From assembly GCA_020722065.1 (NCBI GenBank), contig DYLK01000018.1, forward strand, positions 1 through 55,805: DNA of 55,805 nucleotides, in the 5' to 3' direction. The position numbers were made by a program, and so were the translations under genes. The stretch is from Melioribacter roseus (GTDB lineage Bacteria; Bacteroidota; Ignavibacteria; Ignavibacteriales; Melioribacteraceae). Below, one piece after another: positions 21,725 to 28,389 of this stretch. How positions within the stretch are numbered: the first letter of the stretch is position 1; each line of letters begins with the position of its first letter. The notes below the pieces were generated by a model, which made no database searches, was not told the DNA's origin, and saw nothing but the letters and a program-made list of their open reading frames with translations.

Positions 21725-22837
21725 TTAATTTTTAAATAAATTTTTAAGAAGAATTTCAACGGCTTCAATAGGAAGAATTTCATCGTTTTCAATCTGTTTT
21801 CTGATTTTAGAAATTAGAATCTTCACTTCTGGATTGTTGTAAAAGCGACGTTTTAGCTCGTTTTCTGTAGTTGAAAACACCCAATTGAGAGATTGTTGTT
21901 TTCTTTTTGAATAAAATTCATTGTTTCGCTTTTTAATATCAACAAATTCCGAAATCATCTCCCAAATTTCTTGAATTCCAATATGGTTTAAAGCTGAAGC
22001 GATTAATACTTTTGGTTGCCAAATTCTTGAATTATCCTGAATTATCTTGATTGAGTTTTCGAGTGATTTTGCAGCTAATTCAGAAGCAAGTTTGTTTTCA
22101 CCATCAGCTTTGTTTAAAATAAATCCATCAGAAACTTCAATAATTCCTCGTTTTATTCCCTGAAGTTCATCACCAGTTCCAGCAACAGTTACTAATAAGA
22201 AAAAATCAATCATAGACGAAACCGAAATTTCACTTTGTCCAACTCCAACGGTTTCAACTAAAATTACATCGTAACCAGCTGCTTCACAAAGAAGTATTGT
22301 TTCATAACTTTTTTTTGTAACTCCACCCAAATTTCCGCCAGAAGGAGAAGGACGAATAAAACAATTAACTTCGCGGGAAAGTTTCTCCATTCTAGTTTTA
22401 TCACCCAAAATGCTTCCTTTTGTTACTGAACTTGATGGATCAACGGTTAAGACTGCAACTTTATGTCCGATACTAATTAAATACAAACCAAGTGCTTCGA
22501 TAAGAGTACTTTTCCCAGCGCCAGGAATTCCACTAATTCCAACTCGAATAGAATTTCCCGTTTTTGGTAAAATTGATTTTAGAATTTCTTTCGCTTTTTT
22601 TGCGTGGTTTTCTGAATTGCTTTCAACTAACGTAATTGCTTTTGCGAGAGCTACTCTATCGTTAAGTAATATTTTTTTTACAAATTCATCTATCAAAATC
22701 TCATTATTAGTTTGATTATCAACTATTGTAGATTCCATTTTGATTGGCGAAGCCGTTACAATTTTGGTCGCAAATTTTGAATTGTCTTCATTTTTGTGCC
22801 ATTCTGGTAAATTTTCTGGATTTTTAATTTTAGTCAT
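21725..22837 (-). CDS. meaB: MeaB/ArgK-type G3E GTPase (methylmalonyl-CoA mutase chaperone)
   Basis: A 370-residue P-loop GTPase. Walker A is GIPGAGKS (103-110), followed by VDPSSSVTKGSILGDKTRM and FIRPSPSGGNLGGV, and then VETVGVGQSE with NKADGEN as the base-specificity motif. These are diagnostic of MeaB, which loads and protects the B12 cofactor of methylmalonyl-CoA mutase. The first 45 or so residues are an extension relative to many orthologs. An internal Met34 is a possible later start. No mutase subunit gene is in the window, so it is separated from its client here. A promoter-like TAATTTTG lies 17 nt before the ATG. Confidence 0.92.
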   Translation of the reverse strand: MTKIKNPENLPEWHKNEDNSKFATKIVTASPIKMESTIVDNQTNNEILIDEFVKKILLNDRVALAKAITLVESNSENHAKKAKEILKSILPKTGNSIRVGISGIPGAGKSTLIEALGLYLISIGHKVAVLTVDPSSSVTKGSILGDKTRMEKLSREVNCFIRPSPSGGNLGGVTKKSYETILLCEAAGYDVILVETVGVGQSEISVSSMIDFFLLVTVAGTGDELQGIKRGIIEVSDGFILNKADGENKLASELAAKSLENSIKIIQDNSRIWQPKVLIASALNHIGIQEIWEMISEFVDIKKRNNEFYSKRKQQSLNWVFSTTENELKRRFYNNPEVKILISKIRKQIENDEILPIEAVEILLKNLFKN

Positions 22838-22956: not shown

Positions 22957-23856
22957 ATGACAAATCCTGAAAGATTGACAATTGCAGTTAATGGCGAAAA
23001 CCCAAAAGAGGTTAAAAGAAAACTTGTTGGACTTTTGCGCGATTTATCAATAGATAGCCACAAATACAGAATTTATGTTGACGAGGGTTCTAAAACAATA
23101 ATAAAGCTGATAATTGACGAACTTTATGTAGAACAATTTATTTACGAAGGACTGAACAACCAAATTCAATTTATTGGGACAAGTGAAAAAGTGCGAAGAA
23201 TACTGAATTTACTTTCTTTAGATTATGAAGACTTGGATGATTCACGCGAATTTAAAAAATCGGAAAACGAAACAGTAAATAAAGTACAAGAAGAAATAAT
23301 TTCGTTTGTTAATCTTGACCCAGCAACAATAAAAATGAGCAAAATTTTAGATTCTACAAATCTAACAGATATAATTGAAGATAGTTCTCAAATGATTGTG
23401 CAAGGTGAAGATGTTATAAAAAGAGCAAAAGAAGTTATCGTAAATAGAACAGAAAAAGAAATTGCTGATGCAATACGAGGTTCGAATGATAATCCAAGAA
23501 ATGCAAAAAAGTCAATTAAAATTCTAAAAAAAATTCTATTTGAATCATTTTTGCAAAGCAATAACTTTTTGGACCTTTCTGAAAAAGCAGGTATGAACAT
23601 ACTTGAACTTTGCAAAAAAAATGTAATTTTAAATGAAGAATTAATTGAAATTATACAAAATCGAAACGTAAATGGGTTTATTAGAATAAAAGCTGCAGCA
23701 GTTTATGTTGACAATCTATATAAAAGATCAAAAATGACAGATGGACATCTAAAAGGGATTGATTTTTTAGACCTAAAACTATTTTATCAACAAAACCAAA
23801 ATACTTTCGATAATTTTGAAATAAAAAATCTTTTGTATGTTTTTAATAGAATTTGA
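22957..23856 (+). CDS. Unknown protein A of a tandem paralog pair
   Basis: A 299-residue soluble protein that I do not recognise. Residues about 1-90 look like a small alpha/beta domain (LTIAVNG, YRIYVDEG, IIKLIIDE, IQFIGTSEKV). Residues about 100-299 look almost entirely helical, with repeat-like helices and the segment EKAGMNILELCKK (209-221) followed by FIRIKAAAVYVDNLY. The next gene product, 9 nt downstream, has the same layout and the matching segment KKAGIAAIEVAKK, so the two are diverged tandem duplicates. There is no signal peptide or membrane segment. The gene heads a run of five same-strand genes ending at 26550. The helical part may be a HEAT-like scaffold; this is inference. Confidence 0.7.
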   Translation: MTNPERLTIAVNGENPKEVKRKLVGLLRDLSIDSHKYRIYVDEGSKTIIKLIIDELYVEQFIYEGLNNQIQFIGTSEKVRRILNLLSLDYEDLDDSREFKKSENETVNKVQEEIISFVNLDPATIKMSKILDSTNLTDIIEDSSQMIVQGEDVIKRAKEVIVNRTEKEIADAIRGSNDNPRNAKKSIKILKKILFESFLQSNNFLDLSEKAGMNILELCKKNVILNEELIEIIQNRNVNGFIRIKAAAVYVDNLYKRSKMTDGHLKGIDFLDLKLFYQQNQNTFDNFEIKNLLYVFNRI

Positions 23857-23865
23857 AGGGGAAAT

Positions 23866-24774
23866 ATGAATTCTGAAACAATTTCAATTGTATTGAACGA
23901 AAAAGAGCAAATAGAAGATGTACGAAAAGCTCTTGCAGAATTTAAAATTAATTATCCAGAAGCAAAAATAGCTAAACCAAAATTTGGTGAGTTAAGCAGA
24001 AAAATTTTAATTACATTTAAAGTTGACAAGGACTATACGGCAAAGCTTATAACTACTTTTACAAGATACTACATTAAAATACTTGCGACAACTAATGTTA
24101 TTAAAGACAAAGTAAACGAGGCTACAAGCCAATATGTTGAAGTATTAGCTAGGCAAGATAAAGGTTGGGACGAACTAAAAATTGAACAACCAAAGATGAG
24201 TATTTCTGAACTTGAAGCTTGGGCTGAAGAAGGAGAATACAGCGAAATTCTAAAAGTTGCGAATAATTTAATTCAATATGGTGAAGAACTTAGCGAAAAA
24301 GCTAAAGGAGTTTTACAAAGAAGTTTGTTAAAAGCAATAGAAAATGCTATAGCACTTGCAGAAGAAGATGAAAAAAATGCAAGTCGTTCCATTAGCGATT
24401 TAATACATATTGCAACCGATCCAAAACTAAAAGTATTACAAAAAGTTGATATTATGAAAAAAGCGGGAATTGCTGCGATTGAAGTTGCTAAAAAATATGA
24501 AAAACATATATACGATTTAGTTAGAATTGCCAACAATACAGATTTACACAACATGATAAACGTTGTAGCCGCTGTGGAATTTGCAAAAATTGTAATGCAA
24601 AACAAAGAGAAATACGAAAAAGATATTACAACTGCCGCTCGTGTGATGAATATTCGTTGGCTCGGAATTGCTTATGATGTTGCCAAAGATTTAATTTCAA
24701 AAGAAGATCAAAAAATATTCTTTGAAGTAATCGATTTCCTTAAAGCCGAAAGAAGTAAAATTGATTCCGATTAA
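23866..24774 (+). CDS. Unknown protein B of a tandem paralog pair
   Basis: A 302-residue soluble protein without a family that I recognise. It copies the layout of protein A: an N-terminal alpha/beta part (ISIVLNEKE, KILITFKVDKDY, IKILATTNVI; residues 1-85) and an all-helical part. Matching segments are KKAGIAAIEVAKK (198-210) and VVAAVEFAKIVM (233-244). It carries a longer C-terminal helical end than A (NIRWLGIAYDVAKDL). The start is supported by AAGGGG 5 nt before the ATG. The next gene begins inside or just after its stop, so coupling is likely. The acidic, repeat-like helices suggest protein binding rather than catalysis. Confidence 0.7.
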   Translation: MNSETISIVLNEKEQIEDVRKALAEFKINYPEAKIAKPKFGELSRKILITFKVDKDYTAKLITTFTRYYIKILATTNVIKDKVNEATSQYVEVLARQDKGWDELKIEQPKMSISELEAWAEEGEYSEILKVANNLIQYGEELSEKAKGVLQRSLLKAIENAIALAEEDEKNASRSISDLIHIATDPKLKVLQKVDIMKKAGIAAIEVAKKYEKHIYDLVRIANNTDLHNMINVVAAVEFAKIVMQNKEKYEKDITTAARVMNIRWLGIAYDVAKDLISKEDQKIFFEVIDFLKAERSKIDSD

Positions 24775-25609
24775 TAAACAAATGGTTTTTACCGCTCTCT
24801 TAATTCTTTTCTCATTTTCAATTCATCTATCTCAAAATTTGATAGAATCTAAAAAAATAGGTGAATTTCAAAAAGCAAGCAATTTAGTCTATTTATCTGA
24901 AGGATATTTTTTTATTTCAGATGAAAATGAAAATTCAATAATAAAAATTGATACTTTAGGAAACATACAAAAAGTAATTGGCGGTTTTGGTTGGGAAAAT
25001 TCGACCTTCGATTTCCCATCAGATTTGTTCTTTGCTTCTTTGAACTTGTTTGTGTGCGACAAAAACAACAACAGAATCCAAATTTTTGATAGATTTTTAA
25101 ATTTTCTTTATCAAATTAATTCCGATGAGTATTTAATTTATCCACAAAGTTGCGCCATTTCAGCTCAAGGAGATTTATTTGTTCTCGATTCAGATAACAA
25201 ACGCATTCTAAAATACGATATGTTCGGAAAATTAATTTCTGAAATTGGATATTTTACAAATGGTGAATTTTCGCTCGAAAATCCTTCAAAAATTGAGGTA
25301 AATGGTAATTCAGATTTATTTGTTCTGGAAGAAAATTCGCTATTGGTTTTTGATTTATTCGGCACTGGAAAAGCAAAAATTTCTCTAAAAGCAAACTTTA
25401 CTAATATAAATTCATTCGACAATATTTTAATTATATCAAACGAAAAAGAGGTAATTTTACTTGATATTTCTTCAAGAAAAATGCAAAGTCTCGAGTTTAC
25501 GGATTTAAATTCCACCATTACAGATGCAATTTTAATTGACAAAAATTTATGGGTTTTAACAGAAAATTCTCTTCATCAATTCAAAATATTTGAGAATGCT
25601 AAAGATTAA
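24761..25609 (+). CDS. Exported NHL-type beta-propeller protein
   Basis: A 282-residue protein with an N-terminal signal sequence and about five or six NHL/YVTN-like propeller blades. Typical blade segments are GYFFISDENENSIIKIDTLG, LFVCDKNNNRIQIFDRF and LFVLDSDNKRILKYDMFGK. Such propellers bind proteins or ligands in the periplasm or at the surface. The TTG at 24761 overlaps the upstream gene by 14 nt and supplies a Lys ahead of the hydrophobic core. The in-frame ATG at 24782 gives a signal peptide without a basic residue and is the alternative start. It is the third gene of the paralog-pair unit and overlaps the next gene. The partner is unknown. Confidence 0.78.
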   Translation: MIPINKQMVFTALLILFSFSIHLSQNLIESKKIGEFQKASNLVYLSEGYFFISDENENSIIKIDTLGNIQKVIGGFGWENSTFDFPSDLFFASLNLFVCDKNNNRIQIFDRFLNFLYQINSDEYLIYPQSCAISAQGDLFVLDSDNKRILKYDMFGKLISEIGYFTNGEFSLENPSKIEVNGNSDLFVLEENSLLVFDLFGTGKAKISLKANFTNINSFDNILIISNEKEVILLDISSRKMQSLEFTDLNSTITDAILIDKNLWVLTENSLHQFKIFENAKD

Positions 25610-26042
25610 ATTTGCAATTGTTCTGATACTTTTAATTTGGAATTTGGGCAACTTTATAGAATTCTATATTCACTTGGCAGATTTTTTGCTGTTCTTTCAT
25701 CTTTTTTTTAATCATTTATTCAGTTTTGTATGTCATCAAGATGCTGAAAAAGTAATTTCATTTTGGGGAAAATCGACTTTGCTTTGTAGCCGATGTTCTG
25801 GAATTTATTTTGGAGCATTTTTATTCTCGATAGTTAATATTTTCACCAAACAAGCAAAGTTGATAAAAACAAAGTATTTGTTCTTTGCTGCAATTCCCTT
25901 AATTTTTGATGTAACGTTCACTTCCTTTGGCATTTATAATTATTCAAAAATAATAGCATTTTCAACGGGAATTTTACTTGGTTTTGTCGGATTAGAATTT
26001 TTAATATCAACAATTTTCACATTTTCAGATAACGGAGAATAG
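25596..26042 (+). CDS. DUF2085 membrane protein
   Basis: A protein of about 148 residues with three or four membrane segments and the DUF2085 signature: FSFVCHQ, then LLCSRCSGIYFGAFLF. The Cys/His set CHQ...CSRC is conserved in the family, whose function is unknown. Metal or redox chemistry near the membrane is a guess based on those residues. The ATG at 25596 overlaps the propeller gene by 14 nt. A TTG two codons earlier is also possible. It is co-transcribed with the genes on both sides. Confidence 0.8.
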   Translation: MLKIKFAIVLILLIWNLGNFIEFYIHLADFLLFFHLFFNHLFSFVCHQDAEKVISFWGKSTLLCSRCSGIYFGAFLFSIVNIFTKQAKLIKTKYLFFAAIPLIFDVTFTSFGIYNYSKIIAFSTGILLGFVGLEFLISTIFTFSDNGE

Positions 26043-26043
26043 T

Positions 26044-26550
26044 TTGAAAAAATATTACCCAATTTTAATAGCAGGTTTTATCGGTGGAATTGCTTTCATA
26101 ATTCCAATTTTTAAGAGTTTATCTTGTTGTTTAGTTATTCCAATAATTTCAGTTTTAGCTTTATATTTTGAGATGAAAAGCACGGGGAGAATTGAGCCAT
26201 TTAAACTTAAGGAAGGAATTTCTATTGGGTTATTTACTGGAATTAGTTCCGCTTTTTTTGGATTATTTTTCGATGTTTTCATTACTTTGGTAACGCATTC
26301 CAACGAACTTGTGTTGAGTTATCCACAAATGAATGAAATGTTAAACACTTTTCCCGTTGATGAACCAACAAAGAAGCAAGCGTTAGAAATGATTAAAAAT
26401 GTTGTTCAGCAAATTCAGAATAATGGATTTTCATCAATATATGTTTTTGCTATGCTCATCAATGGATTAATATCAAATTCAATTTTTGGAATAATTGGTG
26501 GAATTGTTGGAGCTAGAATTTTGAACAATAAATTCTTTAAGGTTGAATAA
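26044..26550 (+). CDS. Small membrane protein of unknown family, TTG start
   Basis: A 168-residue membrane protein with about four hydrophobic segments: an N-terminal helix, one through SCCLVIPIISVLALYF, one through GLFTGISSAFFGLFF and a C-terminal NSIFGIIGGIVGARI. A soluble loop of about 45 residues sits before the last segment. The TTG start at 26044 is decided by GGAG 6 nt upstream, by its position 1 nt after the previous stop and by the lack of an ATG before codon 44. The layout resembles DUF4199-type proteins of Bacteroidota, but I cannot assign it firmly. Last gene of the five-gene unit; it is tail to tail with the next gene with no spacer. Confidence 0.7.
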   Translation: MKKYYPILIAGFIGGIAFIIPIFKSLSCCLVIPIISVLALYFEMKSTGRIEPFKLKEGISIGLFTGISSAFFGLFFDVFITLVTHSNELVLSYPQMNEMLNTFPVDEPTKKQALEMIKNVVQQIQNNGFSSIYVFAMLINGLISNSIFGIIGGIVGARILNNKFFKVE

Positions 26551-28389
26551 TTATATAAATAAGTTTTGTAATTTTTGACGAATTGCAATGACTTCGTTTA
26601 TAATTTCCTGTTTTAATTCATTTCTATGCATTTCTTTATCTTTTTCAAACTCACTTATTTCTTCTTTTAAATTTTCAATTTTTTCATTCATTTTCTTTGA
26701 ATGAAAAGCAATTTGTTTTTCAGCTTCTAATTTTAATTGCTTTCTGTTACGTTCACCAACGTTTTTTAAGTATGCAATTTGTTTAACTAATCTGTTTTTC
26801 TGAGTAGTTCTTTCCCACATTGTCGAGGCTGAAGAAACTAAAGAAACGAGAGTTCCAACAATGTATGTTAATAATCCCCACTTAAAACCAGCAAAAATTG
26901 TAGCGGTTAAAACTAAACCAAAATTATTATAATTATTAATATTATTTAAAAATCCTCCCGAAAAACCAGTAATAATGAAAACGACCATTGAAATAATACC
27001 GTTGTAAATCATTGAATTTTTGAATGTTTCACTTGGATTAAACTTTGAATTTTCGTCAATGTGTTCCAACTTAAATTCTACATTCCCAACTAATTGCTCT
27101 AATTCATGCTCGACAGAGGAAAGCGATACTTCAAGTCTTTTTTCTATTTCTTTAGTTCCTTTTTCAATTTCGCTTTGAGTTAGTTCAATTCGTTTTTTAC
27201 TTTCTTTTATCTGAATATCAAATATTTTTACTTTTTCATCAATGTTTTTTTCGTATTTGTCTTCAGCGTTTTTTAATATTAATTCCAATGTACTATTAAA
27301 GAACTTTGAAATTAAATAACTAATATTTGAAATAACTTTATTCTGATTTTCTTTATATAAACTACAAGCCTTTTTAAGAAATTCAATATTCATTGCAATT
27401 TGATCGGTATAATGTTCAGATAATTTTAAGTTTTCCAGAGTATCGAGGTTCACCAAAATTTGTTTCAAAGAGCGAGTGTCGTATTCATAGTTGAAGTTAA
27501 TAATTTGTTCCAACTGCTCAAACATTACAGAAAATTCATCTTCTGAAAAAATATTATAAATTATTGCATTTTTTACAAAAAAATCTAACAAGTTTACACT
27601 TCTATATTTTATTGCAAAAGTAAACCTTTCTTTGTCAAACTCAATCAAATGAACAATTTGGGCAGAAGCCGCCTCAAAATCACCACTTTTTAGATAAGCA
27701 ATTGCGTTAAAATAGGTTGCAGAAATCCCATTGTTTTTTAACAAAATTGTGTCTTCAAATTGTGTTATAGATTTATAAAAATCACCAGCTTTTAGATAAA
27801 TAATTCCCTTGTATAGATTTATGTAATATTTTAATTCAGAAATATACTTTTCATCCAATCCTTCTTGAAATTCAGTTAATTGTTCTGCTTCATCAAGTAG
27901 TTGAATTGCTTTGTCTAATGATATCATCGGGACATTAAAAGAAAGAAGAATTGCATGTAAAATTTTCTTCAAAATGTGGTTTTTATCCAAATCTTTTTCT
28001 AATAAATTAATTGCAGAAAGAGTGTAAAATTGCTTGTCTCTTTCGGACTTTAGGAAAACCCATTTTGAATAAAGTTTTTTAAGTTCGGAAAAACGGGAAT
28101 TTTTTCCACTTGATTTGTTTAGATTATCAAAATACTCTTCAGTTTTTAATAAAAATGGTATATCTGAAATCCAAAATAATGGAGCGGAGTCCATTTTGAT
28201 AAGGAATTCGCTAATGTTAGGAGGTAATTCAATGGAATAAAATCTGGCGGTGGATTTTATAAAATCCAAATGATCAAAGTTCGGTTTGACATAACCTTTA
28301 AACGCTTCTTTAACAAATTGTCGAAACTTTGAAATATCTACCGAGGAATACTCACCCAATCCCTGGGTTAATCCATCGTTTACTTGCAT
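26551..28389 (-). CDS. Large TPR and coiled-coil membrane protein of unknown function
   Basis: A 612-residue protein that I do not recognise as a whole. An N-terminal helical region (1-130) is followed by TPR-like helices (about 185-255, YYINLYKGIIYLKAGDFYKSITQFED, then AYLKSGDFEAASAQI). A helical section and a coiled coil (about 375-445) come next, then two membrane segments (about 461-481 and 489-520), and a long basic/acidic coiled coil reaches the C-terminus (about 530-608). There is no signal peptide, so the TPR part and both coiled coils are probably cytoplasmic, held by a membrane hairpin. AGGGA precedes the ATG. A scaffold or mechanosensing role is conceivable but unproven. Confidence 0.75.
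   Translation of the reverse strand: MQVNDGLTQGLGEYSSVDISKFRQFVKEAFKGYVKPNFDHLDFIKSTARFYSIELPPNISEFLIKMDSAPLFWISDIPFLLKTEEYFDNLNKSSGKNSRFSELKKLYSKWVFLKSERDKQFYTLSAINLLEKDLDKNHILKKILHAILLSFNVPMISLDKAIQLLDEAEQLTEFQEGLDEKYISELKYYINLYKGIIYLKAGDFYKSITQFEDTILLKNNGISATYFNAIAYLKSGDFEAASAQIVHLIEFDKERFTFAIKYRSVNLLDFFVKNAIIYNIFSEDEFSVMFEQLEQIINFNYEYDTRSLKQILVNLDTLENLKLSEHYTDQIAMNIEFLKKACSLYKENQNKVISNISYLISKFFNSTLELILKNAEDKYEKNIDEKVKIFDIQIKESKKRIELTQSEIEKGTKEIEKRLEVSLSSVEHELEQLVGNVEFKLEHIDENSKFNPSETFKNSMIYNGIISMVVFIITGFSGGFLNNINNYNNFGLVLTATIFAGFKWGLLTYIVGTLVSLVSSASTMWERTTQKNRLVKQIAYLKNVGERNRKQLKLEAEKQIAFHSKKMNEKIENLKEEISEFEKDKEMHRNELKQEIINEVIAIRQKLQNLFI

Follow-up and report, generated by a model that had tools for sequence, protein, structure and literature searches.

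Two kinds of described protein come closest to the pair of proteins studied here. ACT/PII-like regulatory domains (the C-terminal part of AcuB, aspartate kinase, GlnB/GlnK) offer the same predicted fold as the N-terminal 75 residues of the pair, and alpha-solenoids (the ARM/HEAT-like VPS35 and Armc8, and the designed DHR71) offer an all-helical domain like their C-terminal part of about 190 residues. We analyzed a 55,805-nucleotide stretch of Melioribacter roseus DNA (assembly GCA_020722065.1, contig DYLK01000018.1; hereafter the window), in which open reading frame calling gave five tightly spaced genes on the + strand at 22957–26550. The first two encode the pair, here called A and B, and the remaining three, here called the trio, encode an NHL-repeat beta-propeller, a member of DUF2085 (PF09858) and a protein whose likely family is DUF4199 (PF13858). 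Unlike ACT/PII-like domains, A and B have no profile match, rarely carry the first-loop glycine in their family and are fused to a long helical domain; unlike alpha-solenoids, they have barely detectable sequence repeats and structural scores in the range of common arrangements. The comparison with ARM/HEAT proteins covers the structures named, and other ARM/HEAT families may fit. A and B are homologous members of a family for which the searches of Pfam, NCBIfam, PHROGs and PADLOC gave no fitting model, and the five genes are a genus-level joining of two separate gene sets, not an ancient unit. The five genes are:

22957–23856, + strand: protein A, 299 residues; predicted ACT-like N-domain at about residues 4–75, low-confidence linker at 92–120, then a helical C-domain; a genus-specific diverged paralog without N-x-R-W
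23866–24774, + strand: protein B, 302 residues, a canonical family member; predicted ACT-like N-domain at about residues 3–75, low-confidence linker at 96–108, helical C-domain at 113–301 carrying N262-x-R264-W265
24761–25609 (TTG start) or 24782–25609 (ATG start), + strand: NHL-repeat beta-propeller, the first trio gene; probably exported
25590–26042 (TTG start at 25590, or ATG at 25596), + strand: DUF2085 membrane protein (62.8 bits; cut-off 25)
26044–26550, + strand: DUF4199-like membrane protein; C28-C29 pair nearly invariant

The family of A and B

An earlier, sequence-only reading of this DNA took A and B for tandem paralogs of no recognised family, quoted segments from each and proposed a profile search for their relatedness. 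The quoted segments are present in both proteins, and the search found homology beyond chance: profile-profile alignment (hhalign) spans 284 columns, nearly the full length (E = 3.8e-15, probability 98.5), and BLASTP gives 28% identity over 111 residues (E = 2e-8 for the pair). With A left out, a profile built from 29 B-type proteins retrieves A (7.1e-20); conversely, B-type proteins are retrieved by a profile made from the A proteins. The lack of a recognised family likewise holds in the four databases as searched. No Pfam or NCBIfam model passed its cut-off for A or B, and the 29 B-type members had no NCBIfam match at E ≤ 1e-3. Their Pfam matches are scattered, with at most three members each among the best 25 of 56 families, the best of these being RST, a plant domain (1.4e-4, 2 members). 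A sequence search of the PDB with the B family returned a single match (E = 0.91), PADLOC gave no family for any of the five proteins at E ≤ 0.1, and PHROGs gave one weak match, to B (E = 0.002, function unknown). A defence or phage origin was considered and rejected on the empty PADLOC result, the weak PHROGs match to B alone and the lack of any B relative at E ≤ 1e-5 in plasmid and phage records. Judged by title, the literature found on ACT domains, HEAT repeats and bacterial signalling adaptors was not relevant, and among the matches listed for conserved hypothetical proteins of Ignavibacteria/Melioribacteraceae, none concerned these genes in its title or the start of its abstract.

A has lost the N-x-R-W motif of the family. 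Among the 61 aligned non-A members (B numbering), N262 is found in 61, R/K264 in 59, W265 in 51, G123 in 58 and Y125 in 55. At position 262 the four full-length A proteins show D, D, D and N, and at 264/265 they lack both R/K and W; L179, A200, G201 and L218 are retained. An unaligned regular-expression count placed the motif in 54/61 non-A proteins and 1/4 A proteins, the latter match being unsupported by the aligned columns. In a tree of 65 members (4 full-length A, 4 genus B and 57 others), the A proteins form one clade (support 100/100, branch 2.05) that joins the B clade of the genus at 92/64, a grouping that supports tandem duplication. Of the tree's 62 inner branches 23 are open, and the other 57 members have no resolved backbone. 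A is most likely a fast-diverging tandem duplicate of B that arose in or near this genus, an origin that the sequences support but do not make certain. A orthologues are 33–37% identical between the more distant species (46–47% in the N-domain), and the A reading frame is open in 4/4 genomes where it is complete.

Where counts are out of 58 genomes, the genome of the window is one of them; the genus is represented by five genomes (G000–G004), of which G003 is the nearest relative. With B as the query, matches were found in 25/58 genomes. With A they were found in 14/58, and full-length A orthologues occur only in genus members G000–G003; G004 has an N-terminal piece of A at a contig end, and the remaining matches are B-type. 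The B profile matched 55/164 genomes of the order, one of which (G033) scored only 5.7e-4, with no family open reading frame found in its stretch. An even draw across the phylum, scored at up to six candidates per genome, gave matches in 14/395 genomes. Twelve of these belong to this order; of the other two, one is from another part of the class (E = 1.2e-23) and the second is a doubtful match (4.1e-4). Other phyla were covered by a single-pattern scan of GTDB contigs alone, which yielded 13 confirmed loci, all apparently on contigs of this order's genomes (labelled Melioribacteraceae, Ignavibacteria(e), Ignavibacteriaceae, Ignavibacteriales and Bacteroidetes metagenome-assembled genomes). The family is thus seen almost only in the order Ignavibacteriales.

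Some members depart from the canonical form of about 300 residues. Three divergent members (L123, L124 and L125) are longer, at 336–361 residues, so that the family is wider than this form. The window genome itself holds a third member, divergent from an enolase gene (L063, contig 37, 8950–9846). In G003 the enolase-adjacent copy is broken and matches in pieces with stops, and its A and B are intact (loci L063, L096).

Structure predictions of A and B agree with the layout proposed from sequence, a small alpha/beta N-terminus and a long helical C-terminus. B was modeled with a mean pLDDT (predicted local distance difference test) of 88.9 and a pTM (predicted template modelling score) of 0.62, and A with 76.9 and 0.52. 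Both models begin with a strand-helix-strand-strand-helix arrangement and a short strand, reaching to about residue 75, and continue with helices split by a low-confidence linker. In a fold search, both N-domains matched ACT domains, AcuB being one of the best: that of B matched AcuB (9s4v_C, Z 9.2, 2.1 Å over 70 residues), tied with YdjB (Z 9.2), and that of A matched AcuB (9qs7_B, Z 10.1, 1.9 Å over 69 residues). As YdjB and domains of V/A-ATPase and MscS (Z 8.3–8.7 overall for the latter two) score close, "ACT-like" is used here as a fold label and not as a unique assignment. Amino-acid-binding ACT domains keep a glycine in the first strand-helix loop. The predicted N-domains of A and B have the ferredoxin-like beta-alpha-beta-beta-alpha-beta order of the ACT fold; no ACT family was among the Pfam matches of the window's A and B at E ≤ 1, and a glycine occupies this first loop in only 5/61 non-A members. 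Because both the profile and the glycine fail, we do not assign the N-domain to the ACT family.

For the C-domain, the fold search matched B with DHR71 (5cwn, Z 10.1, 4.3 Å, 162 residues) and VPS35 (5osi_K, Z 8.4, 4.8 Å, 174 residues), and A with Armc8 (8a1i_P, Z 8.2). Sequence repeats are barely detectable in it (probability 50 for R1–R2, below 1 for R2–R3 and R1–R3, at most 7 for other pairs). Foldseek alone, run with B against the PDB, gave nothing at E ≤ 0.001, its top rows including 14-3-3 and designed proteins with TM-scores of about 0.2. On the models, the domain may be called alpha-solenoid-like only. A and B represent a new family that combines known folds in a new way; they do not amount to a demonstrated new system. 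The family offers this ACT-like and alpha-solenoid-like combination together with a near-invariant motif that is open to mutation.

A composite five-gene unit

The sequence-only reading placed A and B at the head of one five-gene system and proposed a survey of gene order beyond this strain. Within the genus the order extends beyond the strain, with A-B-propeller in 4/5 genomes (G000–G003, junctions −14 to +9 nucleotides) and all five genes in 3/5 (G000, G002 and G003); the G004 locus is split by contig ends. The claim of a single system failed outside the genus. We read 44 trio loci gene by gene (the four A-B loci and 40 fetched ones), six of which belong to the genus. The trio is consecutive and on one strand in 34/44 loci and in 31/38 outside the genus, and none of those 38 has a relative of A or B by phmmer or by either family profile, the only A-B loci being the four. 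Conversely, reading the B-type loci beyond the genus turned up no trio gene. As the trio is kept without A and B, and B-type loci are kept without the trio, the unit is composite and genus-level. This separates a conserved order-level trio from the genus-specific genes upstream of it, and leaves two testable questions: the role of the trio, and the reason for a duplicated, regulator-like pair upstream of it in one genus.

The seven misses outside the genus are of several kinds. At L143 search coordinates put the missing gene where it belongs, L152 lies at a contig end, and L163, L164 and L168 are without DUF2085. At L132 and L145 (family f2) the trio is in order, with a 64-residue gene on the opposite strand (ribosomal protein L28 by eye) standing between the propeller and DUF2085 genes; the last trio gene of L132 was placed by search coordinates.

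The trio appears to be a conserved three-gene envelope operon of one order, apparently unstudied; the literature found on DUF2085 and DUF4199 gave expression-table passages, in PMC6997564 and PMC10434189, respectively. The beta-propeller call for the third gene was borne out by an NHL match over the cut-off (38.4 bits against 20), and relatives occur in 54/58 genomes, a few of them only distant propellers. Its N-terminus is hydrophobic by sequence; a hydropathy test over 19 residues, with a threshold of 1.6, picked out no segment. The fourth gene had rightly been called DUF2085, a family present in 50/58 genomes; the protein carries the Cys/His pattern and belongs to the trio rather than to A-B. 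C46-H47 and C64-x-R66-C67 (numbered from ATG 25596) are invariant in 36/36 aligned orthologues, as are a G and a Y shortly after; one might guess at a metal or haem site. The fifth protein scores 22.9 bits, under the curated DUF4199 cut-off of 32.3, and 25/28 of its orthologues match DUF4199 at E ≤ 1e-3 (down to 3.3e-9). C28 is kept in 39/40 orthologues and C29 in 38/40, and the DUF4199-like protein occurs in 53/58 genomes.

In the window, A and B are separated by 9 nucleotides. B and the propeller gene overlap by 14 nucleotides (TTG start) or lie 7 apart (ATG start), the propeller and DUF2085 genes overlap by 20 (TTG 25590) or 14 (ATG 25596), and 1 nucleotide separates the DUF2085 and DUF4199-like genes. 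The earlier statement that no gap or overlap exceeds about 14 nucleotides therefore stands with the ATG start of the DUF2085 gene and falls with the TTG. The ratio of nonsynonymous to synonymous substitution rates (dN/dS) against G003 is 0.23 for A, 0.16 for B, 0.15 for the NHL gene, 0.12 for DUF2085 and 0.23 for the DUF4199-like gene; all five genes are under purifying selection, which fits real coding genes. A and B are soluble by hydropathy (maximum 19-residue averages of 0.87 and 1.08). The unit is flanked by a divergent MeaB-type GTPase gene (21725–22837) and a convergent 612-residue gene (26551–28389).

Possible roles of the pair

Our leading reading, held tentatively and at less than even confidence, is that A and B would form a cytosolic hetero-oligomer through their ACT-like domains, co-expressed at the level of this genus with the trio and possibly acting on it. 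A and B would pair through the N-domains, the helical domain of B could bind a partner through its N-x-R-W region, and A would modulate or cap B. Co-expressed with the trio in this genus, the pair may then bind the inner face of one of the trio's membrane proteins. A membrane-linked complex of all five products, as the sequence-only reading had it, is possible in this genus.

Several points weigh against this reading. Non-ACT ferredoxin-like domains match the N-domains nearly as well (V/A-ATPase chain 5gar_N at Z 8.7 for B, called a tie; an MscS domain at Z 8.4 for A), and dimerisation of the N-domains does not follow from the fold alone. The A linker and parts of the A N-domain are modest in confidence, and the helical-domain matches are middling (Z of about 8–10), in the range where the tool warns of a common arrangement. 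The association of A/B with the trio was found in one genus only. Within it, A-B-propeller in G001 is followed by an opposite-strand gene, with the DUF4199-like gene on another contig, and DUF2085 was not found in that genome, which is 77% complete.

We consider it equally likely that A-B and the trio are functionally unrelated, transcribed together by chance of position, with B serving as an adaptor elsewhere in the cell. The trio does without A and B in 38/38 loci outside the genus, and B-type genes elsewhere have changing neighbours. Of 65 family loci, 34 have no same-strand neighbour within 150 nucleotides. Enolase adjoins 10/65, 9 of them divergently; these are scattered over the tree (8 label changes) and include the third member in the window genome. 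Against chance, the tight A-B-propeller junctions have been retained in G000–G003 despite the low identity of A between distant species.

A more elaborate form of the hetero-oligomer reading seems unlikely to us: that a new kind of cytosolic regulatory pair joins an active B, through the ACT-like domains, to an A that lacks the motif and serves as a pseudo-copy, and that one genus has recruited this pair to control, from the inner face, an undescribed envelope complex found across the order. That complex would consist of the exported propeller, the Cys/His DUF2085 protein and the Cys-Cys DUF4199-like protein.

Much the same low likelihood attaches to the family being a signalling adaptor that joins sensors (PAS kinases, CheW/MCP, STAS) to outputs, the trio being the output here. 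Besides enolase, neighbours of the family include CheW, methyl-accepting proteins, PAS kinases, a response regulator, STAS, TPR and carbon-nitrogen hydrolases (several by eye). PAS proteins, a response regulator or CheW lie upstream in G002, G004, G006 (PAS kinase, 22 nucleotides), G031 (response regulator, 8 nucleotides), and G008, G021 and G492 (CheW). By Pfam, HATPase_c is commoner among immediate-neighbour proteins (10/103; 103 of 110 listed) than among proteins four or more genes away (3/110, with Response_reg in 4/110). However, six neighbours are one orthologous hybrid kinase of one genus (Reg_prop + HisKA_3, 6 members), which probably accounts for six of the ten HATPase_c matches. A first phmmer count of signalling genes (22/124 at distance 1 against 15/307, p = 4e-5) was biased because its queries had been drawn from among the neighbours. 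Once matches in the same genus as the query were removed, the counts were 10/124 against 13/307 (p = 0.089), with 11/115 and 20/107 at distances 2 and 3. When positions were permuted inside each locus, p was 0.70; with a single locus counted per genus, 6.7 were observed and 5.1 expected. We therefore do not claim an enrichment of signalling genes beside the family, which was non-significant in the fairer control.

One further observation concerns the region upstream of A. In G002, a 657-residue PAS protein, in which no kinase domain was found, is encoded on the same strand 10 nucleotides upstream of A, and a relative of it is also upstream of A in G004 (loci L065, 7622–9592, and L067).

More doubtful still is that the ACT-like domain binds an amino acid or nucleotide and that the family is an allosteric metabolite sensor. 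The N-domain does match regulatory ACT/PII-like domains (AcuB and aspartate kinase for both A and B, GlnK/GlnB for B), and several homologues adjoin enolase and glutamine synthetase genes, but the scarcity of the first-loop glycine and the lack of a Pfam ACT match, both described above, speak against it. That A is a decaying, non-functional duplicate is very improbable: its long branch, its lost signature residues and the visibly broken third family member in G003 would fit decay, but its dN/dS, its open frame in all four genomes and the conservation of its N-domain between distant species argue otherwise.

Other genes around the unit

Two further genes recur near these loci. In 30 loci beyond the genus (within L129–L168) the trio is followed by a gene of 93–124 residues whose product looks membrane-like by eye; the window operon has no such gene. 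Beyond this small gene lie convergent genes that are TonB/ExbD/ExbB-like by eye only. The convergent gene of the window (26551–28389, − strand) encodes 612 residues with a weak TPR match below the cut-off and, by eye, a coiled coil and a membrane segment. This protein was found in 43/58 genomes, the G003 match holding one in-frame stop, and in G006, of another genus, a homologue of it (25% identity over 599 residues) lies directly downstream of a B-type gene.

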